Notes under the pieces: generated by a model
What the model saw: only the letters and a program-made list of their open reading frames with translations
Database searches by the model: none
Told to the model about the DNA's origin: nothing
Shown: positions 28,220 through 42,292 of the stretch, one piece after another
How positions within the stretch are numbered: position 1 is the first letter of the stretch
Layout of the letters: each line of letters opens with the position of its first letter
Origin: Polymorphobacter multimanifer
GTDB taxonomy: Bacteria; Pseudomonadota; Alphaproteobacteria; Sphingomonadales; Sphingomonadaceae
Direction: 5' to 3'
Assembly: GCF_014205635.1 (NCBI RefSeq)
Contig: NZ_JACIIV010000006.1
Span: 62,001-126,000 of the forward strand
Length of the DNA: 64,000 nt
Program-made: the position numbers and the translations under genes

Positions 28220-29555
28220 TTACCTTCGGGCTGGATTTGGGTCCCGCAAATCAAAGTTGGCGATACGCTCAAATGCCGCTTCGAACCGGTCCAAAGTTTT
28301 CGCAACGGGACCGCTTTTCGCTGTCAAAATATCTGGGTTTTGAAGGAGATAGAGTGACGGATCGAAATGACTGAATTCTGGCGCCTCGGGCGGAAGGACC
28401 CTGAAGAAAGCTTCCGCCTTTTTGACCAAACGCTGTGTTGTTGTGTCGGCAGCATCCAGTGATTCAATCGTCATTCGGTGCGTATCGGAAAGGGCGTAGG
28501 TCCTGTTTACAAGTTCGACGAACACTTCTGGTTCAAAGAAATCTTCAATATCAGCCTCTTCCTTGCCCGCGATTTCCGTCGCAAGGATGATCCGCTCCTG
28601 AGCTAGTAGGCTAGACTTATAAAGCTCATCCAGTTTGCGCTTTTGACCGCGCTCAAAGTCGGTGAGGACGGCAACATTCAGCTTGTTGCCATAAAATAAA
28701 CGGACAAAAGGCAATATCTTATCGATGCCACCTGACGGACAAATCGCCCATTGAGGTGCCAGATGTTTTCGGCCGGCAGCCTTTAGGACCGCCGATGCGG
28801 CTTGAAGATACAAGATGTCGCTAGGTCCCTCGACGAGAAGTGTATTTTTTCCAATAACGAGCGTCTGGCTGACCTCGAAGCCCATTGCGCCGAAGATCGG
28901 GAAGTTTGTTTGAGGATCCGTTGTTAGGACGTCGGAGCGAATCTTGGTTCCGATAGACTTTTTCCGATCTCGTGCATCCCTAACGACCACGTCCTCGACG
29001 GTGCGGACACAAGCCAAGTTGTCAGGTGGTACCATGAACGGCGAGTGCGTCGTCCAGATCAATTGGTGATTCGGGGCAATCTGCTCGGAGAAATAACGCA
29101 GCAGATCGAGTTGAGCTGTACCATGGAGGGTGAGGCCGGGTTCATCGAGCAGCAGTATAACGTTACCGTGCGTTCTCTTGATCTGCGCAAATTTGACTAG
29201 GAAAGAGAAAAACCAAATAAATCCTGCCGACCGCTCTGAAAATGGTACTGTCACGCCGCGGAGATTGTTCTCTACACGTGCTCGTGCTACTGGACCAGCA
29301 TTGAAAGGTGCCGGGTCACCAGACTTTCCCTCAGAAAGAACAACCTTAATTTTGAGTTCTTCGTTTTGTGACCAGTAGTCAAATATCTGATTGGTTATCC
29401 TCAACGCGGCTGCCTCGCACTTGGCGTTGAGCTCCTCAAACTGGGTGGTAGCGACGAGTTCTTCAAGCGTTGTCCCGGCATATTCAAGAAAGTCGAGGAA
29501 TACGCGGTCGCCGTTTGCCATCTCAATGCCGTTTCGCTTGTCGGCATCCAGCTTA
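28220..29555 (-). pseudogene. OLD-family ATPase/TOPRIM nuclease, C-terminal part (split by IS)
   Basis: 444 residues of the original protein (from KLDADKRNG to the stop). It carries the C-terminal half of an ABC-type ATPase with Walker B and D-loop (VILLLDEPGLTLHG) and the H-loop (WTTHSPF), then a TOPRIM domain (LLVEGPSDILYLQAA with Glu, VAVLTDFERG with Asp, and EADIEDFFEP). OLD-family proteins are ATPase-nucleases, many of them in phage defence. The Walker A half lies at 30883-31540 beyond the IS. An open frame continues 34 codons into the IS to a pseudo-start at 29656 and adds no native sequence. Base composition is distinctly lower in GC than the flanks. Confidence 0.85.
29554..29555. repeat. 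TA target-site duplication, left
   Basis: TA immediately outside the left inverted repeat, matched by TA at 30883-30884. Keeping one TA and removing the element gives a continuous reading frame through the OLD gene (codons for L-T-K-L-D). Confidence 0.75.
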
Positions 29556-29572
29556 GGCGGCGTGGACAAATT
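29556..29572 (+). repeat. left terminal inverted repeat of the IS
   Basis: GGCGGCGTGGACAAATT, perfectly inverted at 30866-30882. It lies 34 bp outside the end of the passenger gene, so that gene is inside the element. Confidence 0.85.
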
Positions 29573-29606
29573 AGCTGGGGAGATCAGGTGGTCGCAAGCT
29601 GCAAGA

Positions 29607-30005
29607 TCAGGGTTTGAGCCGCATAGGATGTTTGGGATTGCGCGCGATCCATGCATCTACTTCTCTAAGGTCGTCAGGGTATGCTTCGGCCTCTGGGAAG
29701 CTCCTGTAACTCCAGAACCGAAACCCTGCCTCCCACAGCTTACGAAGCTTTTCCCATTGCTCGTTTTCACGTTTCTTTGGGGTACGAAAGGTACGCCCCA
29801 TCAACGCGAGGGGCTTTCCGCATTCTGGGCAGCCATGCTCGGTACTGCCTGTGCGTTTCCAAGATTTTTGGCAGGCGAAACACGCGTGAGCGATGAGGTA
29901 ATCAGGGCCTGCAAGATAGGGCCGCACATAAGGCAGCTGGATAACGCGGTTGCCGAGGGCTTTGCGCAACTCCATCCGGTCGTGTTTCGCCATAGCCTTG
30001 CTCAT
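29607..30005 (-). CDS. zinc-ribbon passenger protein of the IS
   Basis: 132 residues from ATG 30005; TTG 30041 would add 12. The protein has two CxxC pairs, HACFACQKSW and GCPECGKPL, forming a zinc ribbon, followed by MGRTFRTPKKRENEQWEK and LWEAGFRFWSYR. The combination MGRxFxxPK...QWxKxxxLxxxGFRF recalls a family of small uncharacterised alphaproteobacterial proteins, from memory. It is transcribed away from the transposase and lies wholly between the IS ends. Function unknown; regulation of transposition or a host-benefit cargo are both possible. Confidence 0.75.
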   Translation of the reverse strand: MSKAMAKHDRMELRKALGNRVIQLPYVRPYLAGPDYLIAHACFACQKSWKRTGSTEHGCPECGKPLALMGRTFRTPKKRENEQWEKLRKLWEAGFRFWSYRSFPEAEAYPDDLREVDAWIARNPKHPMRLKP

Positions 30006-30103
30006 TCGCTTGAGACTGCCGCAACGGCGCGGAGTTCGCAATGCATGAGCGGGATTGACGGGGTGTCTGCTGATTGATTCAAGGCTGTCTTTTGGAGGCA
30101 GGC

Positions 30104-30885
30104 TTGAGCCGGGGAGATCTCACCGAAGCAGAATGGCGCATCTTGAACGATTTGCTGCCGATCGAGCGCAAGAACCGGGGTCGGGGCAGACCTCCGGAAC
30201 AGAATCGTTTGATCATCAACGGCATACTCTGGCGGCTTCGGTGCGGTGCCCCGTGGCGCGACGTGCCTCCCAAATACGGCAACTGGAACACGATCTACCG
30301 GCGGTTTAGGCGCTGGAGCGAGGCTGGGGTCTGGGAGGCCGTTTCGGTCACGCTGGCCGAGATCATGGCGGACAGCGGCCACTACAGCATCGACAGCACC
30401 ACGGTTCGCGCCCACGTCTCGGCAGCGGGCGGAAAAGGGGGGCTCATCGACGCGCACTTGGCCGCTCGCGGGGCGGGTTCACCAGTAAGCTTCACTGTCT
30501 GGCTGATGCCAGAGGACGACCGCTCGCGTTCCTCCTGACGGTCGGCGAGGCGGCAGACTGCAAAGCATATGACGCCCTGATCGGCTTGCCCGAGCGCGAA
30601 CCGGTCGCCCTGCTTGCTGACAAGGGCTACGATGCTGATGCAATCCGTGCCGACCTTGCCCAACGGAAGATCAAGGCTGTCATTCCTGGTCGGTCAAACC
30701 GCCGCGTGAAAATTGAATATGACCGAGCGCTCTACAAGCAGCGCAACCGCATCGAACGCATGTTCGGTCATCTCAAGATCAACCGCGCCATCGCGACCCG
30801 CTACGATCAACTCGCCAACAGCTTCCTCGGCATGGTCCATCTCGCCACTGCCAGATACTGGCTCAAATTTGTCCACGCCGCCTAG
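30104..30885 (+). CDS. IS5-family transposase, two frames joined by -1 frameshift
   Basis: Start TTG 30104 with GGAGG 5 nt upstream. Frame 1 encodes the N-terminal DDE part (DLTEAEWRILNDLLP, NGILWRLRCGAPWRDVPPKY, and the first Asp in YSIDSTTVRAHVSAAGG). At A4G6 (30433-30442) a -1 slip leads into the second frame, which reads ALGRSRGGFTSKLHCLADA, LLADKGYDADAIRADLAQRK (second Asp), and YKQRNRIERMFGHLKINRA (Glu). The stop TAG is at 30883-30885, partly formed by the target duplication. Without the slip, frame 1 ends at 30538. Catalytic triad is complete, so the element may be active. Confidence 0.85.
30433..30442 (+). promoter_or_regulatory. slippery A4G6 site for programmed -1 frameshifting
   Basis: GGAAAAGGGGGGCTC holds A4G6 exactly where the two transposase frames must join. 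A -1 shift gives K-G-G-A-H-R-R-A-L-G-R-S-R-G-G, the sequence expected between the two catalytic Asp segments of IS5/IS427-type transposases. A plain loss-of-frame mutation is the alternative. Confidence 0.65.
30866..30882 (-). repeat. right terminal inverted repeat of the IS
   Basis: AATTTGTCCACGCCGCC, reverse complement of the left end. It forms the last codons of the transposase gene. Confidence 0.85.
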
Positions 30886-31540
30886 TGAGGGAGACTTCAC
30901 CGCTCATGCGGTCCCAGTGCGAAAAGTACATAAATTTTGGCATTCGTTTCGAGAGAATGTCTATCGCGCGCAGCGTGGCGTCACGATCGCGGAAGTCCCC
31001 AATAAGCGCGAACAGCGCGTCCTGCGCCGGCGTTCGTGTGGCTAACCCTTCCAGTGCCTCATAGGCTTTCAATGTGGTCCGCGCCTCACTCAGCACCGCT
31101 TTGTCGTCGGCGCCAAGTTCGGACCTTGAGATAAGATTCGCTAAAACCTTGGCCTCATTGATCGTAAGGGTCCACGTGGCCGCCGTTTCCTCGTAGCTCT
31201 TGGACACTTCGAAGGTGTTCGCCTGAATGACGTCGGTGCCGAGCTCGGCTTCGACCGCCGTCACGTCTGCTGGCTCGAGTTCCCAGGTCGCGGTCATGAC
31301 CACGGCCTCATTTCCGTCGTGAATGTTGACATACTCAGCGAGATTCTTACGCGGATAATTGGTGATCTTATTGTATTGAGTGAAGCTGGGATCAGTCGAC
31401 CGCAGACCTTCCAGCGCTTTCAAAAAGGCCGATTTTCCGGCCTCGTTTTTGCCTACTAGGCAAGTTGATTGGTCGATCTCCACAACGTTCGAGTCCAAGA
31501 TGTTACGATAGTTAGTGGCGTGCGCGGTGATCAGCTTCAC
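30883..31540 (-). pseudogene. OLD-family ATPase/TOPRIM nuclease, N-terminal part (split by IS)
   Basis: 219 native residues from ATG 31540, then the IS end; the open frame goes six codons into the IS. It begins MKLITAHATNYRNILDSNVV and has Walker A in CLVGKNEAGKSAFLKALEGL (about residues 27-45), typical of OLD/RecF-like ATPases. The last native segment, FMYFSHWDRMSGEVSLT, joins in frame to KLDADKRNG at 29553 after excision of the IS, restoring a protein of about 663 residues. No companion helicase (as in Gabija) is adjacent, so it was probably a stand-alone OLD gene. Confidence 0.85.
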
Positions 31541-31841: not shown

Positions 31842-34800
31842 CTACACCCCCCCCGTCACTTCCACCACATTGTCGTCCGAGTTGCGGTCGACGTATTTGT
31901 TATAGGGGTCGATGCCGGCGAAGGTGGGGGGTTTGGGGGTGATGATGCGGAGCTCCTGTTTGCCGGCGCGGATGGGGTGGCGTTCCATGAGGAGAACGTC
32001 GGTCTTGCCGAAGGCGCCCTGGCCGGGGCGTTTGGTGAAGAGGCCGATGTCGATGATGTCTGAAAGGGGGGCGGGGGTTTCCTTGCCCTGGCCGTCGGCG
32101 TGGGCCTTGGTGGCTTCGATGGTGATGCGGGTTTCGTAGGTGTTGTTGGGCAGCTTGCGGGTGGTGGCGTCGGTGGCCTTGAGGTCGAAGATGGTGATGC
32201 GCTCCATGAGGTCGGACACGAGCTGGCGTTCGGAGGGGGTGCGAGCGAGGGCTTTCAGGCCGTCGACCAGGATGGTGGAGCGGGGGTAGGGGGCGCCCTT
32301 GAAGCGGTGCTCATCGAGCAGGCGGGCGAGGAGGGCGTTGACGCGGTCCTCCCCCAGCCGATCGGCGAGGAGGTACATGACGACCGCGCCCTTGCGGTAG
32401 TGGATGTAGCCCTGGTTTTCGACGCGGTTCAGCGGCAGCTCCTCGATGGCTTCGCTGCCGCGCGAGCGGAGGTAGTTGTCGAGCTCGTATTTGAGGAAGC
32501 GGCGGATCTTGTCCGGCCCGTAGAGCTGCTTCATCACCATGAGGGCGCTGTATTGGGCGAGGGTTTCCGAGAGCAGGGTGCCGCCCTGCATGTCTGCGCC
32601 GAGCAGCTGGTGCGCCCAATATTGGTGGGCGACTTCGTGGGCGGTCACGTAGGTGACATAGTCGATCGAGTCTTCGTCGCCATTGTCGGCGAGGAAGCCG
32701 ATGCCTTCGGAATAGGGCATGGTGCCGGCGAAGGCCTGGGCGAAGCTGGCGTAGCCGGGGAACTCGACAACGCGGGCGTGATCGAACTGGTAGGGGCCGA
32801 AGTTGGTGCGGTAATAGCCGAGCGAGGCCTTCATGGCGGCGAGCATGCGATCGGCGTTCCAGCCGTGGCGGGCATCGTGGAAGACGCTGAGCTTGACGCC
32901 ATCGGCTTGCGCCGTCTTCTCTACATAGTCGGCGGACTGGACCGAGAAGAAGCTGAGGATCGGGCCCTTGGAGACGAAGGTGGCGGTGCGGCGGCCGCCG
33001 CTGGTGACGTCGGACGTGCGCACGCCGGGGGCCAGGGGGACCTGGCCGGCATCGGTGGAGAGGGTGATTTCGGCGGAGACCCAATCGGCGAAGCCGATGT
33101 AGCTGCGGCGGGTGGCGGACAGGTCTTCGAGCCTGGGGGGGCGAAGCTCGGCGGGGAGGCCATATTTGCGGCGCTTCACCCGGTCTTGCAGCAGGCCCGA
33201 ACGGCCCATGCCGATGAGGGGAGCGAAATCCACGTTGTTGACGAAGCTGCCGTTGGCGACGAGGCCGGAATCATCGCCGTTGGCGGTGAAGCCCTGCTGC
33301 CAGCGGCGGGTGCGGAAGCTGATGGGGAGGGTGGCGCCCGGCGCCAGCGGGGTGGCCAGGCGGAAGATGTGATAGCCGAGGCGCTTGTCTTCGAGGGTGC
33401 GGGTGGCGCCGGGGATATCGAGTGCCAGAAGCTCGATGCGCGGATCGGTGATGCGGAGGTGGAGATCGGTGATGGGGGCGGTGCCGGGGTTGCTCAGGAG
33501 CATCTGGCCGCGGGCTTCGAGGCGGCGTTCGGCGGGGAAGAGATCGATGGCGAGCTTTATGTTGGTGGTGACGGGTTGGGCGAGGTTCTCGTATTTGAGG
33601 TAGGATTTTTCGAGATCGGCCTGCAGCAGCTCGAAATCGTCTTCGGTGCGGTAGGTGTTGAGGATGTTGGTGTTCCAGTAGATGAAGCTGCCGCTGGCGA
33701 TGGCGACGAGCAGGCCGGCACCGGCGATGAGGCCGGGGGTGCCCATCAGGCCCGAGGGCAGGCGGCGGAGGCGGGGGGCAAGGCGGACTTCGGTGCCGCG
33801 GCGCCAGAGGAGATGCGCGGCGACGGCGAGGAGCAGGGCGACGGCACCCCAGTAGAGGCGGAGCCACCAGGCGGCGGGGCCGCCGAGCTGATCCCCGTTC
33901 ATGTCGGAAAAGCGGACGCGGCCGGTTTCGCCGTAAAGGTAGAGCGGGTGTTCGAAGCCGAGGTTGGCGAGGGTGATGGTGGCGACGACGTAGAGCACCA
34001 TCAATGCCCAGCCGACATATTTGTTGGGGCTGAGCGCCTGCACGAACACGGCGAGGACGGCGAGGAGCAGCATGTCGACGGTGCCGGGGAGGAGGTACCA
34101 GAGCAGCCATTGGCCGAAATCGATGGCGGCCGAGCCGCGGATGAGCTGGATGATGATGGCGGCGACCATGCCGGCGGCGAGGGTGGCCATGAGGACGCCG
34201 GCGACGGCGATGACCTTGGGGACGAGATAGGCCCAGCCGGGGAGCGGGGTGGAATCGATGATCTCGTGGAACTTGCGCTCGCGATCGCGCCAGACGAGCT
34301 CGCCGGAATAGTAGATGGCAATGATGATGGGGATGATGCCGAAGCTGCCGAACAGGGTTTCGACGAGCGCGAAGGTGGCGGGGCGCGAGGGGGTGCCGTA
34401 GATCTCGTTGGCGAACCAGAGCGCACCGCCGGCATTGAAGAGGCCGGCGAGAATGAGGACGATGAAGGCGGGGCTGCGGAACAGCATCTGCATTTCGAAG
34501 CGGGTGCGCGCCGACAGCCGGGCCCAGGCAGTGCCGGTGCTTTGGGTGGCGGGCAGGGTGGCGACGGTGACGGGGGCGACGGCGGCGAGTTTTGCCTCTT
34601 TTTTCGCGGCCTTGGCGGCGGCGCGTCTGGAGAGGCCGCGCTCGCCGAAGCGGAAGCGGGCGAGCGCGAGGCCGATGGCGGCAAGGGCGATGCCGAACCA
34701 GAGCGCGCGGTTGGCGAGCAGGCTGCCGTCGATGGGCGGGGTGAGGCTGTTCTGCTCAGTGGCGGTCCAGTAGCGGGTGGCGTTGCCGAAGGCTGCGAAG

Positions 34801-35435
34801 CCGAAGGGCTCGACGATGGCGGCGAGCTCGCGCAGCTCGGGCCTGGATTGCAGCACGCCGACGAGGACGAGATAGGCGATGAGGAACACGACGACGCCGA
34901 GATAGGAATAGAGCATCGAGCGGGTGAGCGTGGCGACGGCGAAGAAGATGCTGGCGGTGAGGAAGACGTTGGGGAGGGCGAGCACGCCATAGGCATAGGC
35001 ATAATCGGCGAGGCGGTTGGGTCCGACGGTTTCGGAATCGACCCAGGGCATGAAGGAGCCGAGGACGATGGCGAGCGGCACGGCGAGGAAGGCGACGGCC
35101 GCAGCGATGCTCGCACCCGTGAAGCGGCCGATGAGATAATCGAAGCGGGACACGCGGGTGGAGCGCACCATCGGGCCGAAGCCGCTCTCGTCATCGCGAA
35201 CGATGACATTGGCGACGAAGGCGGTGGTGACGAACATGAAGAAGATCGACAGCACCAGATGCACCTGGGCGATGGCGAAGGGGCTGTTGACCTTCACATT
35301 GCCGCCGCCGCCGATGGAGATTTCCTCGAGCGTGGTGGCGCCGAAGGTGAGCAGGAAGAACAGGATGCCGACGACCCAGAAGACCGGATTGCGGAACTGG
35401 TAGCGCAGCTCGAAGGCGGCGATGCTGGCGAACAT
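31842..35435 (-). CDS. ABC-2 permease fused to an M1-family aminopeptidase
   Basis: 1197 residues. The first ~590 residues hold about twelve hydrophobic segments in two ABC-2-type permease blocks (AFELRYQFRNPVFWVVGILF at the start; a second block from ARTRFEMQMLFRSPAFIVLI). The rest is a periplasmic M1 metallopeptidase domain with HEVAHQYW at about residue 933 and the third zinc ligand in LLSETLAQY, 18-19 residues later, plus a later YRKGAVVMYLLADRLG (Tyr region). The ATP-binding partner is the adjacent upstream gene, overlapping by one base (35435). Such permease-peptidase fusions are known in proteobacteria; their substrate is not established. Confidence 0.92.
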   Translation of the reverse strand: MFASIAAFELRYQFRNPVFWVVGILFFLLTFGATTLEEISIGGGGNVKVNSPFAIAQVHLVLSIFFMFVTTAFVANVIVRDDESGFGPMVRSTRVSRFDYLIGRFTGASIAAAVAFLAVPLAIVLGSFMPWVDSETVGPNRLADYAYAYGVLALPNVFLTASIFFAVATLTRSMLYSYLGVVVFLIAYLVLVGVLQSRPELRELAAIVEPFGFAAFGNATRYWTATEQNSLTPPIDGSLLANRALWFGIALAAIGLALARFRFGERGLSRRAAAKAAKKEAKLAAVAPVTVATLPATQSTGTAWARLSARTRFEMQMLFRSPAFIVLILAGLFNAGGALWFANEIYGTPSRPATFALVETLFGSFGIIPIIIAIYYSGELVWRDRERKFHEIIDSTPLPGWAYLVPKVIAVAGVLMATLAAGMVAAIIIQLIRGSAAIDFGQWLLWYLLPGTVDMLLLAVLAVFVQALSPNKYVGWALMVLYVVATITLANLGFEHPLYLYGETGRVRFSDMNGDQLGGPAAWWLRLYWGAVALLLAVAAHLLWRRGTEVRLAPRLRRLPSGLMGTPGLIAGAGLLVAIASGSFIYWNTNILNTYRTEDDFELLQADLEKSYLKYENLAQPVTTNIKLAIDLFPAERRLEARGQMLLSNPGTAPITDLHLRITDPRIELLALDIPGATRTLEDKRLGYHIFRLATPLAPGATLPISFRTRRWQQGFTANGDDSGLVANGSFVNNVDFAPLIGMGRSGLLQDRVKRRKYGLPAELRPPRLEDLSATRRSYIGFADWVSAEITLSTDAGQVPLAPGVRTSDVTSGGRRTATFVSKGPILSFFSVQSADYVEKTAQADGVKLSVFHDARHGWNADRMLAAMKASLGYYRTNFGPYQFDHARVVEFPGYASFAQAFAGTMPYSEGIGFLADNGDEDSIDYVTYVTAHEVAHQYWAHQLLGADMQGGTLLSETLAQYSALMVMKQLYGPDKIRRFLKYELDNYLRSRGSEAIEELPLNRVENQGYIHYRKGAVVMYLLADRLGEDRVNALLARLLDEHRFKGAPYPRSTILVDGLKALARTPSERQLVSDLMERITIFDLKATDATTRKLPNNTYETRITIEATKAHADGQGKETPAPLSDIIDIGLFTKRPGQGAFGKTDVLLMERHPIRAGKQELRIITPKPPTFAGIDPYNKYVDRNSDDNVVEVTGGV

Positions 35436-36322
35436 CAGGCGGCCTTCAGGGCTGCACGGCTGCCGGCGAGGGTGGCGAAATACACGTCTTCGAGGCCGCC
35501 TTCCACCGCCTCGAAGCCGGCGCCGGGGTGCGCATCCGAGAGGACATGGATGACGGTGCGGCCGGCGAAGAGGCGGGTGCTGATGATGATGTGGCGCTCG
35601 GCCATCTCGGCCATGTCGGACCGGTCGATGGTGCGTGCCCAGACGGTGCCGCGGGCGCGGGTGATGAGATCCTGCGGCGCCCCTTCGAGCTGGATGCGGC
35701 CATCGGCGAGGACGGCCATGCGCGGGCAGAGATCCGCCACGTCATCGACGATATGGGTGGAGAGGATGATGACGACATTCTCCCCGATTTCGGCGAGCAG
35801 GTTGAGGAAGCGGTTTCGCTCCTCGGGGTCGAGGCCGGCGGTGGGCTCGTCGACGATGATGAGCTCGGGGTTGCCGATGAGCGCCTGGGCGATGCCGAAG
35901 CGCTGGCGCATGCCGCCCGAAAAGCCGGCGATGGCCTTGTTGCGGACGCTCCAGAGGTTGACCTGGACCAGCAGCGTCTCGACGGTGGCCCTGCGATCGG
36001 ACGCCGATGCGATGCCCTTGAGGACGGCCATGTGATCGAGCATCGCATAGGCGCTGACACGCGGATAGACGCCGAAATCCTGCGGCAGATAGCCGAGGCG
36101 TTCGCGCAGCCGCGCAGGCTCGGCGATGATGTCGATATCGCCGAAGCGGATGGTGCCGCTGCTGGGCGTCTGCAGCGTGGCGATGGTGCGCATCAGGGTC
36201 GATTTGCCGGCGCCATTGGGGCCGAGCAGGCCGTACATGCCCTTGGGGATGGAGAGGGTCACGCCGTCGAGGGCGCGGGTGCCGTTGGGATAGACATGGC
36301 TGACGTCGACAAGTTCGAGCAC
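35435..36322 (-). CDS. ABC transporter ATP-binding protein
   Basis: 295 residues, one nucleotide-binding domain. Walker A GPNGAGKSTLMRTIA near residue 36, Q-loop LPQDFGVYP, signature FSGGMRQRFGIAQAL, Walker B LIIVDEPTAGLDPE and H-loop LSTHIVDD are all intact, and a ~70-residue C-terminal extension follows. It energises the permease-peptidase fusion encoded immediately downstream. Divergent from the ACP gene with 209 bp between. Confidence 0.93.
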   Translation of the reverse strand: MLELVDVSHVYPNGTRALDGVTLSIPKGMYGLLGPNGAGKSTLMRTIATLQTPSSGTIRFGDIDIIAEPARLRERLGYLPQDFGVYPRVSAYAMLDHMAVLKGIASASDRRATVETLLVQVNLWSVRNKAIAGFSGGMRQRFGIAQALIGNPELIIVDEPTAGLDPEERNRFLNLLAEIGENVVIILSTHIVDDVADLCPRMAVLADGRIQLEGAPQDLITRARGTVWARTIDRSDMAEMAERHIIISTRLFAGRTVIHVLSDAHPGAGFEAVEGGLEDVYFATLAGSRAALKAA

Positions 36323-36531: not shown

Positions 36532-36774
36532 ATGGACGAGACACAGGTTCTGGCGAAGTTCCGCGACGTCTTTGCCGATGTGATGGACATCGATGACCCC
36601 GAGATCGGCATGGAGTCGACCGCCAAGGATTTCGAGGAGTGGGACAGCCTGTCCAACATCCGGCTGGTGGTGGCGGTCGAGCGGGCGTTCGGCACGCGCT
36701 TCTCCAATGCCGATATCGAGGGTTTTTCGTGCGTCGGCGATCTGGTGCGCGCACTTGTGGCGCGCGCCGGCTGA
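36532..36774 (+). CDS. stand-alone acyl carrier protein
   Basis: 80 residues from ATG 36532 with GGAG 7 nt upstream. Four-helix ACP with the phosphopantetheine Ser39 in FEEWDSLSNIRLVVAVE. The surface is acidic (MDIDDPEIGMES). It is not the housekeeping fatty-acid ACP: there is no fab context, and the gene is the first of a cluster with an FkbH-type HAD enzyme, an MBOAT acyltransferase and two SGNH-type proteins. It probably carries the unit that FkbH loads. Confidence 0.92.
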   Translation: MDETQVLAKFRDVFADVMDIDDPEIGMESTAKDFEEWDSLSNIRLVVAVERAFGTRFSNADIEGFSCVGDLVRALVARAG

Positions 36775-36798
36775 TCGCACGAACGAGGGGCCTCGCCG

Positions 36799-38715
36799 AT
36801 GCATTCCCCCACCACCGATCCGCTGGGCTTGCCGTGGCTGTTGCCGGCACCCGATGACGTGCGGGGGCAGGTGCGGGCGCTTGCCGGCAGCGCCGAGGCC
36901 ATTGCGGCGCAGGCGCTGACGGGGCTTGCGGGTCATGCGCTCGACCTCGACCAGCTGACGAGCGTGGCGAAATTGCTCGACAAGGGGCGGTCGCGGATCG
37001 AGGCGGGGACGCTGACGCCGCTCAAACTCGCGCTTCTGCTCGATGGCACCGCCGATCATCTCGCTCCGGCGATCCGCGGCTCGGGGCTGCGGCACGGCTT
37101 GCTGATCGACTGCTGGGTGGCGCCCTATGGACAGGCGCTGGCGGAAGCGACGCGGCCCGGAAGCGACCTTAGCGCCAGCGGCGCGCAGATGGCGCTGGTG
37201 GCATCGGATTTCCGCAGCCTGGGGCTGGGGCGGCCGCATGTGGATGCGGGGGCGGCCGAAGACGCGGTGGCGGGGGCGCTGGCACGGATCGAGGCGATTG
37301 TCGGTGGGTTGGCGGGCCTAAAGATCACGCCGGTGCTGGCGACGGTGCCGGTGCCCGCCGGAAGCTGGATGGGCAGCTTCGATGCGCTGGCTCCCGGATC
37401 GCCCGCGGCGATGGTGGCGGCGTTCAATGTGCGGCTGGCGGCCCTTGCGCAGGCGCGTGGCGCGCTGCTGTTCGATGCGGCGCGGGTGGCCGCCCTTGCC
37501 GGGCATGGCCGCTGGTTCGATGACGGCTTGTGGAACCGCTCGAAGATTCCGTTTGCGCTCGATGCGGTGCCGCTGTGGGCGGACCATGTGGCGCGGCTGC
37601 TGGGCGCGGCGCGCGGCAAGGCACGCAAGTGCCTGGTGCTCGACCTCGACAACACGCTGTGGGGCGGGATCATCGGCGATGACGGGCTGGAGGGGATCAA
37701 GCTCGGACAGGGATCGTCCGACGGCGAGGCGCATCTGGCGGTGCAGGCGATGGCGCTCGACCTGAAGGCGCGCGGGGTGGTGCTGGCGGTGGTTTCCAAG
37801 AACGAGGAGGCGGCAGCGCGGCTGCCGTTCCAGAAACACCCCGAGATGCTGCTGCGCGAGGCGGACATTGCGGTGTTCATCGCCAACTGGAATGACAAGG
37901 CGACCAACATCGCGCATGTGGCGACGACGCTGAACATCGGCGTCGATGCCCTGCTGTTCCTCGATGACAATCCCGCCGAACGGGCGCGGGTGCGGCAGAT
38001 GCTGCCGCAGGTGGCGGTGCCCGAAGTGCCGGCCGACCCGTCGCTCTATCCGATGATGGTGATGGGATCGGGCTGGTTCGATGCGGTGGCGCTTTCGGAC
38101 GATGACCTGAAGCGTGCCGAGCAGTATCGCGCCAATGCCGAGCGCAGCGTGGCGCTGCAGCAGATCGGCGATTATGACGATTATCTGGCCTCGCTCGACA
38201 TGGCGTGCGAGCTTTCGCGCTTCGATGCGATCGGGCGGGCGCGGATTGCGCAGCTCATCAACAAGTCCAACCAGTTCAACCTGACGACGCGGCGCTACAC
38301 CGAGGCCGAGGTGGCGGTGGCAGAGGCCGACGATCAGGTGTTCGACCTGCAGGTGCGGCTGGTCGATCGGTTCGGGGACAATGGCATGATTTCGGTGGTG
38401 ATCGCCAAGGCTGCGGGGGACGAGTGGCTGATCGACACCTGGCTGATGAGCTGCCGGGTGCTGGGGCGGCGGGTCGAGGAGGCAGTGCTGGCGAGCCTGG
38501 TGCAAGGTGCGCGCGGCGCAGGGGCTGTGCGGCTGGTGGGCGAATGGCTGCCGAGCCCGAAGAACGCGATGGTCGAACGGCACTACGAGAAGCTGGGGTT
38601 CAAGGCGGCCGGCGCACTCGAAGGCGGCGGCACGCGCTGGGTGCTGGAACTGGCGGACCATGTGCAGCCGAAGCTGCCGATGGCGCTGAGCGGCGACCGG
38701 AGCTTTGCTGCGTGA
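36799..38715 (+). CDS. HAD-IIIC/FkbH-like protein
   Basis: 638 residues. An N-terminal ~270-residue domain (with ALLLDGTADHLAP, VLATVPVPAGSWMGSFDAL) precedes the HAD domain with D282 and D284 in CLVLDLDNTLWGGIIGDDG, VVSKNEEAAA and LFLDDNPAERARVRQM. A C-terminal GNAT-like domain (INKSNQFNLTTRRYTEAEV, SCRVLGRRVEEAVL, YEKLGFKAAG) is typical of FkbH. Characterised FkbH enzymes take D-1,3-bisphosphoglycerate, dephosphorylate it and load a glyceryl group onto an ACP. The ACP gene lies 24 bp upstream. Substrate here is inferred. Confidence 0.9.
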   Translation: MHSPTTDPLGLPWLLPAPDDVRGQVRALAGSAEAIAAQALTGLAGHALDLDQLTSVAKLLDKGRSRIEAGTLTPLKLALLLDGTADHLAPAIRGSGLRHGLLIDCWVAPYGQALAEATRPGSDLSASGAQMALVASDFRSLGLGRPHVDAGAAEDAVAGALARIEAIVGGLAGLKITPVLATVPVPAGSWMGSFDALAPGSPAAMVAAFNVRLAALAQARGALLFDAARVAALAGHGRWFDDGLWNRSKIPFALDAVPLWADHVARLLGAARGKARKCLVLDLDNTLWGGIIGDDGLEGIKLGQGSSDGEAHLAVQAMALDLKARGVVLAVVSKNEEAAARLPFQKHPEMLLREADIAVFIANWNDKATNIAHVATTLNIGVDALLFLDDNPAERARVRQMLPQVAVPEVPADPSLYPMMVMGSGWFDAVALSDDDLKRAEQYRANAERSVALQQIGDYDDYLASLDMACELSRFDAIGRARIAQLINKSNQFNLTTRRYTEAEVAVAEADDQVFDLQVRLVDRFGDNGMISVVIAKAAGDEWLIDTWLMSCRVLGRRVEEAVLASLVQGARGAGAVRLVGEWLPSPKNAMVERHYEKLGFKAAGALEGGGTRWVLELADHVQPKLPMALSGDRSFAA

Positions 38716-38795
38716 GGGCTGTGTGCAGCAGTTTTGCGGGTGGTGTGCGCGGGGCTTCTGCCTGCCGCCGCGCGCTGTTCTGACGATCCGGCGCA

Positions 38796-40352
38796 ATGCT
38801 GTTCAACTCGCTCCAGTTCTTGCTGCTGTTCCTGCCGGTGACGCTGGCGGGGTTCTACCTGCTGCTCCACTTCGGCAAGCGGGACTGGATCTATGCCTGG
38901 CTGGTGGGCGCCAGCCTGATTTTCTATGCGGTGTGGAACCCGCCCTATGTGGCGCTGCTGGTGCTTTCGATGGTGGGCAACCATGCGCTCGCCAGGCAGA
39001 TCGAGCGACTGCGGCCGGTTCGGCCGTCGGCGGCGAGTGCGGCGCTGTATCTTGGCGTCGCGGTGAATGTGGGGCTGTTGATCTACTACAAATACGCCAA
39101 CTTCTTCCTCGACATCACCAACAGCGTCGCCGACACCGACTGGACGCTGCACAAGATCATCCTGCCGCTGGCGATCTCCTTCTACACGCTGCAGCAGGTG
39201 GCGTTTCTCGTCGATGTCGCGCGCGGCGATGTGAAGACGACGAGCCTGGCGCGCTATGCGACCTTCGTCATCTTCTTCCCGCAGCTCATCGCCGGGCCGA
39301 TCGTGCATTACCGCGAGATGATGCCGCAGTTCTTCGGACGGGCGGCGGGGCGCTTTGCCAGCGCCAACATCATGGTGGGGCTGGTGATCTTCGCGATCGG
39401 GCTGTTCAAGAAGACGGTGATTGCCGACACGGCGGCCGGCTTCTCCACACCGATCTTCACCGCGGCGCGGATCGGCGCTGACATCGGGCTCGTCGATGGC
39501 TGGACGGCGGTGTTCTGCTACACCATCCAGCTCTATTTCGATTTTTCGGGCTATTCCGACATGGCGGTGGGGCTGGCGCGGATGTTCGGCATCATCCTGC
39601 CGATGAACTTCCACTCGCCGCTGCGCGCCGGGTCGATCATCGACTATTGGCGGCGCTGGCACATGACGCTGCAGCGCTTCATCGTGGCGTATATCTTCCA
39701 GCCGATCGTGCTGCCGCTCGCCCGGCTGGCGGCGCAGTGGGGGCTGGGCAAGTGGCAGGGCTTTGCGCTCGCCACGGTGCTGCCGACGATGCTCTCCTTC
39801 ATCATCAGCGGGCTCTGGCACGGGGCGGCCTGGACCTTCGTGCTGTGGGGGATGATGCACGGCGTGTATGTGGCGGTGAACGAATTCTGGCGGCAGTATC
39901 GGCGCAAGGCACGACGCAAGGCGCCGCCGGGGCGTGGTGACGTGGTGCTTTATTATGTGATCACGCTGCTTGCGGTGCTGTTTGCCAATGTGATGTTCCG
40001 CGCCGAGGGCGTGGGCTCCGCGCTTGCGGTGTGGGGCGGGATGCTGCGGCTCGACCAGCTGGCGAGCCTTGGCGATTTCGTGCCGATGTCGCTGGCGGAG
40101 GTGTTTTCGAAGCCGCTGGTGCTGATCGTGATCGGCATGGCGCTCATCGCCTTCTTCCCCAACACCCAGCAGTTGATGACGCGGTATCGGCCGGTGCTGG
40201 AATGGGATGTGTGGAAGCGCGTGGCGCCGCCGGTGATCAGCCTGACGTGGCGGCCGACGCTCGTGTGGGCGGTCGCGACCGGGCTTGTGCTGATGCTGGG
40301 GACGGTGTTCATCCTGCGCGGCCAGTCCGAATTCATCTATTTCAACTTCTGA
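38796..40352 (+). CDS. MBOAT-family O-acyltransferase (AlgI/DltB-like)
   Basis: 518 residues, about ten membrane helices. Opens MLFNSLQFLLLFLPVTLAGF, the usual AlgI-type start. Key motifs: FPQLIAGPIVHYREMMPQF, the substrate channel region IQLYFDFSGYSDMAVGLARM, NFHSPLRAGSIIDYWRRWHM, and the catalytic His342 in SGLWHGAAWTFVLWG. In AlgI, PatA and DltB systems this protein moves an acyl group across the membrane to a polysaccharide or teichoic acid. Here the donor would be the cluster's ACP. An 80-bp gap separates it from FkbH; no other ORF fits in it. Confidence 0.93.
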   Translation: MLFNSLQFLLLFLPVTLAGFYLLLHFGKRDWIYAWLVGASLIFYAVWNPPYVALLVLSMVGNHALARQIERLRPVRPSAASAALYLGVAVNVGLLIYYKYANFFLDITNSVADTDWTLHKIILPLAISFYTLQQVAFLVDVARGDVKTTSLARYATFVIFFPQLIAGPIVHYREMMPQFFGRAAGRFASANIMVGLVIFAIGLFKKTVIADTAAGFSTPIFTAARIGADIGLVDGWTAVFCYTIQLYFDFSGYSDMAVGLARMFGIILPMNFHSPLRAGSIIDYWRRWHMTLQRFIVAYIFQPIVLPLARLAAQWGLGKWQGFALATVLPTMLSFIISGLWHGAAWTFVLWGMMHGVYVAVNEFWRQYRRKARRKAPPGRGDVVLYYVITLLAVLFANVMFRAEGVGSALAVWGGMLRLDQLASLGDFVPMSLAEVFSKPLVLIVIGMALIAFFPNTQQLMTRYRPVLEWDVWKRVAPPVISLTWRPTLVWAVATGLVLMLGTVFILRGQSEFIYFNF

Positions 40353-40364
40353 CGGGATGTTTGC

Positions 40365-41393
40365 TTGAGCCGGCCGATGCGTCTTGCCCCCTTTGTCCTG
40401 GTGATGCTGGCCAGCATCCTGGCCGGCTATGCGGCGCTGGCGGCGTTTCCGCACGATCCGTACATCCGCTACCAATCGTTCAAGGGAACGATCTTCGGGC
40501 GGCTGACGTGGATCTATGATCGTATCCACCATGATGTGGCTCCGATCGATGTGGTGGTGCTCGGCTCGTCGCGCAGCGGGGCGGCGGTGGTGCCGCCGCT
40601 GCTGGAAGAGGCGCTGGCGGCGCGCTGCGGCCGGCCGATCAAGGTGGCCAATTTCGCGCTGCCGGCCTCGGGCATGGACATCAGGCTGACGCTGCTCGAC
40701 GAGCTGCTGGAGACCAAGCGGCCGCGGCTGGTGGTGTTCGACACGGTGGAGCGGCTGCCGCGCGACGGGCACCAGGCCTTTGCCGACCTGGCGCGAACCT
40801 CGGAAGTGCTGGGCAGCCCGTTGCTGATCAATCGCAACCTGCCGTCCAACCTGATCCGCCTGCCGGTGCGGCAGGTGCAGCTGGCGGCCGCCACGCTGGC
40901 GCCGACGGCGTTTGGCTACACCGGCAGCTTCATCCCCGAAAATTATGCCGGCACGACGATCCGGATCGAGCCCGCCGATATTCTGGACAACTACCGACTG
41001 CCGCGGGCCGACATGACACCGCAGGAGCATGCAGCGCTGCTCGACGCGGACTCGGCACGGCGGCTGGCCGGGCTGACGCCGCCGCTGTTCGGCGGCAGCA
41101 TCGCCCCGCTCGAATTCGGGGTGTCACGCCATTATGTGCGTGCGGTGCATGACCGGGCGCGAGCCTCGGGGGCGCGCTTCGCCATCCTGTTCTTCCCCTT
41201 CTACAAGGGCCCTGCGGCGCCGCTCGACCGCGATTGGCTCGAGGGCGTGGCGCCGGTCTGGTCCGTGCCCGGGGTTTCGGGGGATCCGGCGAATTATATC
41301 GACACGGCGCATCTGGGGCGCAAGCCGCAGGCGCAGGTGCAGGCGTGGCTGGCGGACCGGATTGCCGGGGAGCTGGGCTGCAAGGCTGGTTGA
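40365..41393 (+). CDS. DltD/AlgX-like SGNH-type periplasmic protein
   Basis: 342 residues from TTG 40365 (ATG 40377 possible). An N-terminal membrane anchor (LAPFVLVMLASILAGYAALA) is followed by a periplasmic domain with VVVLGSSRSGAAVVPPLLEE (Ser nucleophile position), FALPASGMDIRLTLLDELL and a late PANYIDTAHLGRKPQ that supplies Asp-x-x-His. This arrangement matches the SGNH-like partner that many MBOAT acyltransferases need for the final transfer. It is 12 bp after the MBOAT stop and overlaps the next gene by TGATG. Confidence 0.75.
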   Translation: MSRPMRLAPFVLVMLASILAGYAALAAFPHDPYIRYQSFKGTIFGRLTWIYDRIHHDVAPIDVVVLGSSRSGAAVVPPLLEEALAARCGRPIKVANFALPASGMDIRLTLLDELLETKRPRLVVFDTVERLPRDGHQAFADLARTSEVLGSPLLINRNLPSNLIRLPVRQVQLAAATLAPTAFGYTGSFIPENYAGTTIRIEPADILDNYRLPRADMTPQEHAALLDADSARRLAGLTPPLFGGSIAPLEFGVSRHYVRAVHDRARASGARFAILFFPFYKGPAAPLDRDWLEGVAPVWSVPGVSGDPANYIDTAHLGRKPQAQVQAWLADRIAGELGCKAG

Positions 41394-42292
41394 TGCGGGC
41401 GGTGCGGCGCATCCTGCTCGTGCTGCTGGCAATGCTGGTGGTGGCGGCGATCGGGCTTGCGGCGCTGGCCGCGACGACGCCGGGGGGCATGCAGCAGGCG
41501 ATGCGCGACGTCCGCCGTGGGGTGCGCGAGACGCTGGGGCTGCCGAAATTCTGGTATGATGTGCGCAAGGTGGCGAAGGCGAGCGGGGCCGCGGTGGCGT
41601 GCCCCGACCCGGCGGTGACGCTGACGATCGTGACGGGGGGACAGTCCAATTCCGGCAATTCGGTGGAGGGGCGCACCGCCTCCGACCCGGGGGAGCAGCT
41701 GTTCGTGTTCGACGCCGGCAAATGCTTTGTGGCGGCGGACCCGATGGCCGGTGCTTCGGGCAAGCGCGGCAGCCTGTGGCCCGACCTTGGCCGGCGGCTG
41801 CATGCGGCCACCGGGCGGCCGGTGCTGTTCATCAACGGCGGCATCGGCGGCTTCCAGGTGGCGGACTGGCTCGACCGGCGCTCGGGCTATTGGGACAATC
41901 TGGCGGGGCGGGTTGCGGCGGCGCGGCAGCTCGGGTTCGAGCCGGGCTGGATCTTGTGGCACCAGGGCGAGACCGATGCTTCCACCGGGATTTCGCCCGA
42001 ACGCTTCGAGCGCGAGCTGGGGCAGCTGACGCGCGACCTGCTTGCGGCCGCACCGCGGGCGAAGCTCTACCTGTTCCAGACGACGCTGTGCTCGAGCCCG
42101 CGCAACCTGGCCGGGGTGCCGCCGCTGCGTGCCGTGCAACAGGCGATTGCCGATGCGAACCCGCGGATCGTGGCGGGGCTGAACACCGATACCCTCGATG
42201 GGCGCTACCGCTGGGATGGCTGCCATTTCAACGCCGCCGGGCGCGATGCGATCAATGCCGAAGTGGCGCGGGATCTGCTGGCGGCGGGGTAG
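41393..42292 (+). CDS. sialate O-acetylesterase-like (SASA) SGNH hydrolase
   Basis: 299 residues. Signal/anchor helix (ILLVLLAMLVVAAIGLAALA), then an SGNH domain: TIVTGGQSNSGNSVEG with Ser85 as nucleophile, NGGIGGFQVADWL, WILWHQGETDAST and a C-terminal WDGCHFNAAGRDAINAE carrying the Asp-His pair. Family members remove O-acyl groups from sugars. The start overlaps the stop of the preceding gene, so it belongs to the acyltransferase operon and may edit or remove the same substituent. Confidence 0.85.
   Translation: MRAVRRILLVLLAMLVVAAIGLAALAATTPGGMQQAMRDVRRGVRETLGLPKFWYDVRKVAKASGAAVACPDPAVTLTIVTGGQSNSGNSVEGRTASDPGEQLFVFDAGKCFVAADPMAGASGKRGSLWPDLGRRLHAATGRPVLFINGGIGGFQVADWLDRRSGYWDNLAGRVAAARQLGFEPGWILWHQGETDASTGISPERFERELGQLTRDLLAAAPRAKLYLFQTTLCSSPRNLAGVPPLRAVQQAIADANPRIVAGLNTDTLDGRYRWDGCHFNAAGRDAINAEVARDLLAAG

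Follow-up and report, generated by a model that had tools for sequence, protein, structure and literature searches.

A five-gene operon of Polymorphobacter multimanifer combines an FkbH-type enzyme and a carrier protein with an MBOAT/SGNH pair, probably for Dlt-like acylation of a polymer outside the cytoplasmic membrane

Five adjacent open reading frames (ORFs) on the + strand of a 64,000-nucleotide stretch of the Polymorphobacter multimanifer genome (contig NZ_JACIIV010000006.1, positions 62,001 to 126,000; referred to here as the window) probably encode a Dlt-like system for the carrier-protein-dependent acylation of a polymer outside the cytoplasmic membrane, in which the carrier would be charged by an FkbH-type enzyme in place of an adenylating ligase, the cargo probably being a glyceryl group. 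The operon, at positions 36532-42292 of the window, encodes in order a stand-alone acyl carrier protein (ACP), the FkbH-type enzyme, an MBOAT acyltransferase, a membrane-anchored SGNH-superfamily protein and a SASA-type carbohydrate esterase. The first four genes are separated by gaps of 24, 80 and 12 bp, and the SGNH and SASA genes overlap by one base in the sequence TGATG (TGA plus ATG). An earlier reading of the same DNA, referred to below as the original prediction, had described five genes on one strand with this coupling at the last junction; all of the ORFs are present and the junction bases were confirmed. The set is not a chance assembly, as all five genes occur in a relative (locus L031) and FkbH, ACP and MBOAT are found together in many other bacteria.

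In the proposed relay the substrate of FkbH would be an acyl phosphate, most probably the glycolytic intermediate D-1,3-bisphosphoglycerate; the HAD domain of the enzyme would remove the other phosphate and the glyceryl group would be passed to the phosphopantetheine of the ACP, as expected for the FkbH family. The MBOAT, at the cytoplasmic face, would move the acyl group from the ACP via His342 to its own Tyr515, by analogy with PatA. Ser69 of the SGNH protein would then receive it from the tyrosine and hand it to a hydroxyl group of a periplasmic glycan, as for DltD and PatB, where the SASA esterase may remove or edit it. Because the energy would come from the acyl phosphate, neither an ATP-dependent ligase nor a coenzyme A (CoA) ester would be needed. 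What the analysis shows directly is which genes and motifs are present, how the proteins are predicted to fold, that the linkage is conserved and that the linked MBOATs bear a sequence mark; the acyl group, each of its transfers and the acceptor are inferred. That an FkbH-loaded ACP feeds an outward-directed MBOAT/SGNH pair was the core of the original prediction, and it has gained from the linkage, the MBOAT tree, the acyl-tyrosine hexapeptide and the DltD-like fold described below, while the argument from sphingans that accompanied it proved weak.

The ACP (36532..36774, + strand) has 80 residues and matches PF00550 with 33.9 bits (cut-off 20.8; E 3.9e-08), with its phosphopantetheine site, Ser39, inside a DSL motif, in agreement with the dedicated ACP that had been predicted. 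The FkbH-type carrier-protein acyltransferase (36799..38715, + strand; 638 residues) passes TIGR01686 by a wide margin, with 283.8 bits against 146.65, and has further matches to TIGR01681 (51.9 bits) and PF21211 (27.6 bits, cut-off 27). It consists of an FkbH_N domain at the N-terminus, a HAD-IIIC domain with its catalytic residues (D282, D284, S333, K367, D389 and D390) and a GNAT-fold, acyltransferase-like domain. D282 and D284, on which the earlier assignment as an FkbH-like HAD protein had been based, are the same in 6/6 aligned proteins, as are further HAD residues and Cys552. By sequence, residues 68-432 match the HAD protein BF1531 (3SLR), and the predicted model, with a mean predicted local distance difference test score (pLDDT) of 79.8, matches both 3SLR and GNAT acetyltransferases in fold; the GNAT domain would seem to lie in the C-terminal third, the matched ranges not having been printed. 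Cys552, which lies in an SCR motif and is invariant in the 6 aligned proteins, may take part in covalent transfer, and the cysteine of a CSKN motif in relatives is a valine in the window protein. From its membership of the family, the cargo of FkbH is probably glyceryl; the 1,3-bisphosphoglycerate chemistry of these enzymes is cited or proposed in the accessible text of two papers (PMC7489565, PMC5318452). One related FkbH frame (G395:C4:25115-26980) contains a single in-frame TGA within the matched region.

The MBOAT (38796..40352, + strand; 518 residues) matches PF03062 with 96.1 bits (cut-off 27), and His342, which had been picked out together with the family, is invariant across 79/79 aligned MBOATs. 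Its nearest solved structures by sequence are those of DltB (6bug and 8jem) and its sole NCBIfam match is TIGR04091, the DltB family, with 173.4 bits, under the equivalog cut-off of 375. The protein ends in the hexapeptide FIYFNF, which includes Tyr515. Work on PatA has shown that the acyl group travels from MBOAT to SGNH protein on the tyrosine of a tail of this FXYXXF type (PMC12148441, accessible text), and the tail is present in 47 of the 56 complete FkbH-linked MBOAT ORFs, a count that excludes locus L083, where the MBOAT ORF is incomplete.

The SGNH protein (40365..41393, + strand; 342 residues) matches no Pfam family above its cut-off and no NCBIfam family, and was assigned through its DltD-like predicted fold and the alignment of its homologues. 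Ser69, Asn96 and His316 are invariant in 11/11 of these, with Asp313 found in 9/11, and Ser69 and His316 correspond to the catalytic serine and histidine of an SGNH partner. An AlphaFold model built from the 11 homologues (mean pLDDT 85.3) has a predicted N-terminal helix at residues 7-26, and all eight of its PDB fold matches at E <= 0.001 are DltD entries, with TMq values of 0.36-0.43; the title of entry 3bma reads D-alanyl-lipoteichoic acid synthetase. The helix, the fold and the two invariant residues bear out the membrane-anchored SGNH-like protein of the original prediction. A loose motif search for SGNH-like neighbours matched 20 of 56 linked MBOATs, missed most of the known cases and was not used. 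At one linked locus (L032, 8487-12215) the MBOAT is flanked by two distinct SGNH paralogues, 31.6% and 38.8% identical to that of the window, which perhaps serve two acceptor sites.

The last gene (41393..42292, + strand) encodes the SASA-type carbohydrate esterase, as had been suggested: it matches PF03629 with 41.6 bits (cut-off 24.8), has a hydrophobic N-terminus and contains the motifs GQSN and HQGETD, recognised by eye. At E <= 0.1 its sequence matches a single PDB entry, 2apj (E 0.021), and the homologue in L031 is 43% identical.

The association of FkbH with an MBOAT extends well beyond this genome. A search of 148 relatives for FkbH (E <= 0.001) gave 20 positive genomes, that of the window counted amongst them, and in 10 of these an MBOAT lies no more than 4 kb away. 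A draw of 385 genomes from the class gave a close FkbH (E <= 1e-60) in 26, with an MBOAT (E <= 1e-30) within 5 kb in 11 of them, the window's own genome being included in both counts; by a rough estimate, random placement would put far less than one MBOAT beside FkbH. When the best 80 of 565 confirmed matches to the FkbH alignment were taken as named loci, 25 of them with less than 5 kb of flank on one side, an MBOAT was present within 5 kb in 51 and an ACP within 2.5 kb in 61, the aligned ACP stretch containing a [DE]S[LIVMA] motif in 53. The MBOAT-linked loci amongst these best 80 come from many families of Pseudomonadota and from Acidobacteriota, Nitrospinota, Bacteroidota, Verrucomicrobiota, Elusimicrobiota and Omnitrophota. 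The ACP accompanies FkbH and not the MBOAT as such, since an ACP match (E <= 0.01) was seen in 5/6 FkbH-linked relative loci, the sixth running into the end of its contig, versus 0/14 MBOAT regions without FkbH, two of which are shorter than 10 kb.

Conservation of gene order, put forward in the original prediction as a check, holds for part of the operon. FkbH, ACP and MBOAT occur together in several phyla, but the exact five-gene order was found in no other locus searched; L031 has the same five genes in the order SASA, FkbH, ACP, MBOAT, SGNH. The outer members are rare: SASA is present in 1 of the 86 FkbH loci searched (L031) and absent from the other 85, and the SGNH subfamily was found by sequence in 5 of the 80 named FkbH loci together with four relatives. 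Two loci, L056 (9983-13760) and L057 (9686-11884, with a Bac_transf gene nearby), contain FkbH and ACP with no MBOAT match, so that cytoplasmic enzymes may also transfer glyceryl.

The linked MBOATs also group together. On a quick tree of 79 MBOATs, from which L026 and L083 (MBOAT loci without a complete ORF) are omitted and in which some long branches are unsure, FkbH linkage requires 2 changes, compared with a mean of 19.4 for shuffled labels, and none of 500 shuffles gave a value as low. In 22/22 unlinked MBOATs the sequence LRDY is found eight residues after a conserved W[HN], and DltB has RDF at the same place. The three main linked clades, with 37 MBOATs between them, lack the Arg-Asp pair throughout (0/37), the window protein having V297-A298 at this position; amongst the other linked MBOATs, L070 has lost the Arg, L112 has RD, and L072 and L075 have KD. 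Loss of the pair suggests a changed donor or acyl pocket. A sister clade (L035-L046, the MBOATs of L006-L018), 39-47% identical to the window MBOAT, has the Arg-Asp pair, and neither FkbH nor an ACP is matched close to it; in L035, L037, L038 and L044 a gene for a protein of 330-405 residues follows the MBOAT.

A number of points weigh against the relay as proposed. Both the cargo of FkbH and the docking of the ACP on the MBOAT are inferred, and the TM-scores of the SGNH model to DltD are modest, at 0.33-0.43. The FXYXXF tail is absent from 9 of the 56 FkbH-linked MBOAT ORFs, and its F, Y and F are carried by 22/22 unlinked MBOATs, so that, as judged from the alignment, the tail is a mark of MBOAT/SGNH chemistry in general. 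These 22 proteins come only from the order of the window, which biases the comparisons of linked with unlinked MBOATs. An Arg or Lys is found at the Arg position in 3 of 41 main-group linked MBOATs and in 13 of 16 divergent linked ones, and the idea that loss of the pair marks the use of a carrier protein was rejected, because DltB, a known carrier-protein user, keeps it. Several of the linked MBOATs from other phyla are divergent (67-107 bits). All six members of the FkbH query alignment are MBOAT-linked, biasing the rate amongst the 80 loci upwards, and the class draw gives the fairer figure. There, 14 of the 26 FkbH genomes have no MBOAT within 5 kb (G272 being unassignable amongst the matches listed), and FkbH must therefore have other transferases as partners too. 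In L056 a hexapeptide-repeat protein and a methyltransferase match, in place of an MBOAT, adjoin FkbH and ACP. Finally, no polysaccharide genes, those of a sphingan-type locus included, were recognised in the predicted gene list of the window, which was inspected mostly by eye, and the neighbours of the linked loci L058, L063 and L077 include no clear polysaccharide locus, again by eye.

Some of these points would suit a different arrangement, in which the MBOAT and SGNH protein are an ordinary acetyl-CoA-dependent O-acetyltransferase pair of the AlgI/PatA type and FkbH and the ACP produce a glyceryl or hydroxymalonyl unit with another destination. According to a 2023 review, every MBOAT but DltB uses acyl-CoA (PMC10213974, accessible text), the FkbH genomes of the class draw without a nearby MBOAT are consistent with a separate role for FkbH and the unlinked sister clade has the same tail as the window MBOAT. 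This arrangement is nevertheless thought quite unlikely, given the linkage of FkbH and MBOAT across phyla, the mere two label changes on the tree, the altered residues next to the WH motif that set the three main linked clades apart, and the lack in the operon of any other enzyme that would use the loaded ACP.

If the carrier-dependent relay is taken as the starting point, genes that accompany it in relatives bear on the nature of the acyl group. A small VOC gene directly follows the SGNH gene in 8/9 relative loci, and in L062 an AT3-like gene, named by eye, intervenes. A VOC match was found in 9/9 other fetched loci of this SGNH subfamily and also in L050 (Novosphingobium meiothermophilum, L051, is one of the VOC-bearing relatives), compared with 6 of the 80 named FkbH loci, and VOC as a general neighbour of FkbH was therefore rejected. 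The nearest solved relative of the VOC protein is methylmalonyl-CoA epimerase (1jc4, E 2.7e-09) and its nearest NCBIfam family, TIGR03081, is matched below cut-off. His10, Glu57, His79 and Glu129 are invariant in 10/10 sequences, and we take these to be the metal-binding positions expected of the fold. Genome-wide, a VOC match above 200 bits is found in 4 of the 148 relatives, the four that have a close FkbH-MBOAT-SGNH module; these four contributed rows to the VOC model, so that the weight falls on the remaining genomes, none of which gave more than 45.3 bits. Of the 385 genomes in the class draw, G340 alone has a VOC match at E <= 1e-25, with an MBOAT and FkbH as neighbours. By analogy with methylmalonyl-CoA, where the carbon is likewise alpha to the thioester, the VOC protein may epimerise C2 of glyceryl-ACP, making the gene a possible stereochemical switch. 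The group delivered would then be L-glyceryl, the form found in gellan, in VOC-bearing systems and D-glyceryl in that of the window. In the window operon the SASA gene occupies the usual place of the VOC gene, and no gene of the VOC subfamily was found in this genome by a profile search (best match 28 bits) or by a single-protein search run without a control.

The same relay might carry another acyl group, for instance if FkbH were to load lactyl, or if the glyceryl were altered on the carrier by O-methylation or C2 epimerisation. Amongst 12 selected linked loci there is a methyltransferase match in 8 and an epimerase-like VOC match in 10, and FkbH together with an O-methyltransferase has been proposed to make 2-O-methylglycerate in suomilide (PMC10143770, PMC13122637, accessible text). 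For the window such variants seem improbable: neither a methyltransferase nor a VOC gene is matched within it, the search for the former having covered the window and not the rest of the genome, and in view also of the empty VOC searches a plain group is the simplest reading here. Glyceryl is the likely acyl group. More speculatively, the operon may belong to a second class of carrier-protein MBOAT systems spread over several phyla, in which glycolysis would power surface acylation directly, FkbH making glyceryl-ACP from 1,3-bisphosphoglycerate and a specialised MBOAT without the Arg-Asp pair exporting the group, with a VOC protein inverting C2 in most members of the window's subfamily and a methyltransferase possibly capping it; this broader picture is put forward only tentatively. 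The window organism would in that case have lost, or never had, the epimerase and would make the D form, and the VOC-bearing versions would explain L-glyceryl of the gellan type.

As to the acceptor, the original prediction had drawn on the glyceryl groups of sphingans, but gellan carries L-glycerate (PMC9104527, accessible text) and D-1,3-bisphosphoglycerate should give D-glyceryl. A possible epimerase could reconcile the two, but it goes with the relatives and was not found in this genome. With no polysaccharide genes recognised around the operon either, the analogy with gellan was dropped as evidence, and a link to gellan is unsupported for this genome. The gellan producer Sphingomonas elodea ATCC 31461 does not appear by name in the best 80 of the 565 FkbH matches. 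Its capsule-type genes are on other contigs: Bac_transf genes are found on C1, C3 and C20 and Poly_export genes on C1, C3, C5, C13 and C20, and searches of the genome detected neither on C6, the contig of the window. The loci on C1, C3 and C20 could supply the acceptor.

This separation of the operon from recognised polysaccharide genes, in the window by eye and on the contig by the searches, would also fit a lipid, lipoprotein or peptidoglycan as acceptor in place of an exported glycan, and MBOAT/SGNH pairs are described as modifying peptidoglycan too (PMC12148441, accessible text). Such an acceptor is considered unlikely, as some relatives lie beside exopolysaccharide-type genes and the last gene of the operon encodes a SASA carbohydrate esterase. 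Poly_export, Wzz, Polysacc_synt and AT3 genes are all near the linked locus L054, and single examples are found at L050 (Bac_transf), L062 (Wzz), L032 (Wzy_C) and L034 (PS_pyruv_trans).

The operon is flanked on one side by an ABC transporter/M1 peptidase pair and on the other by an AMP-nucleosidase-like gene, the latter named from a reading of its sequence. In three of ten named genomes searched (a Sphingomonas MAG, S. populi and a Novosphingobium capsulatum MAG) the AMP-nucleosidase-like protein has a 67% identical counterpart, which makes Sphingomonadales the likely order of the host; the assembly gave no 16S rRNA match. The pair is made up of a 1197-residue protein with ABC-2 permease segments and an M1 peptidase domain (31842-35435) and an adjoining ABC ATPase gene (35435-36322). 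About 5 kb upstream of the operon, a region of low third-position G+C content (28220-31540) looks like a small mobile island, with ORFs that by eye resemble transposases (30074-30538 and 30586-30885) and an OLD-type ATPase (30863-31540). A scan for promoters and terminators was uninformative, giving 1 promoter-like site, inside FkbH (shuffled mean 0.7), and 6 terminator-like sites against 3.9 expected. Searches against PHROGs gave weak matches only.

In the open-access literature searched, which leaves most subscription journals outside, no paper pairs FkbH with an envelope MBOAT, in keeping with the statement in the original prediction that no characterised system of this composition was known. 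The papers that mention both FkbH and MBOAT concern nonribosomal peptides, where FkbH is proposed to load glycerate, followed by an O-methyltransferase (PMC10143770, PMC13122637, accessible text). Each component is familiar, but the literature searched seems to contain no description of them together. In addition to the 2023 review, the accessible text of the PatAB paper states that no MBOAT/SGNH pathway but Dlt has a carrier protein (PMC12148441). If the relay is correct, the acyl-CoA rule and the carrier-free rule would each need one more exception, a system that spans several phyla and draws its charge from a glycolytic acyl phosphate in place of ATP. The operon would also provide a testable set of enzymes for the glyceryl groups of bacterial polysaccharides, for whose attachment no assigned gene was found in the accessible text of the literature examined. 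The acyl groups of polymers such as gellan, according to the parts of the literature accessible, set their gel properties, so that such enzymes could be useful.

The flagellin of Campylobacter jejuni bears methylated glyceric acid. We know of no MBOAT/SGNH pair in its cj1302 locus, although no search for one was made. The likeness to the window operon is the presence of an FkbH-domain gene, cj1302, in a surface-glycan locus (PMC7099621, accessible text). In the polyketide and nonribosomal peptide pathways that use FkbH and an ACP, such as those for tetronates, methoxymalonyl-ACP and suomilide, the ACP likewise adjoins the FkbH protein, but in the window operon FkbH has an N-terminal FkbH_N domain and is paired with a membrane acyltransferase, and there is no ketosynthase, dehydrogenase or nonribosomal peptide synthetase gene. 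With PatA/PatB, AlgI/AlgJ and WssH the operon shares an MBOAT that has the catalytic histidine and an FXYXXF end, and a separate anchored SGNH protein. It differs from them in having an ACP and FkbH, those systems being said to use acyl-CoA without a carrier protein (PMC12148441, accessible text), and in the lack of the Arg-Asp pair from its MBOAT.

The closest parallel is with the Dlt system (DltA, DltB, DltC, DltD and DltX), in which DltC is treated as a hub (PMC9338922, accessible text). Both have a dedicated carrier protein and an acyl-tyrosine tail motif, the solved structure nearest to the MBOAT is that of DltB and the predicted fold of the SGNH protein is like that of DltD. In the window operon, however, FkbH stands in the place of the DltA ligase, with no DltA amongst the five genes, to which the search for it was confined, and the tail is fused to the MBOAT as in PatA, the gaps of 24, 80 and 12 bp holding no separate DltX microprotein. 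The MBOAT also falls short of the DltB equivalog cut-off (173.4 versus 375 bits), and the group transferred would probably be a hydroxy acid instead of D-alanine.

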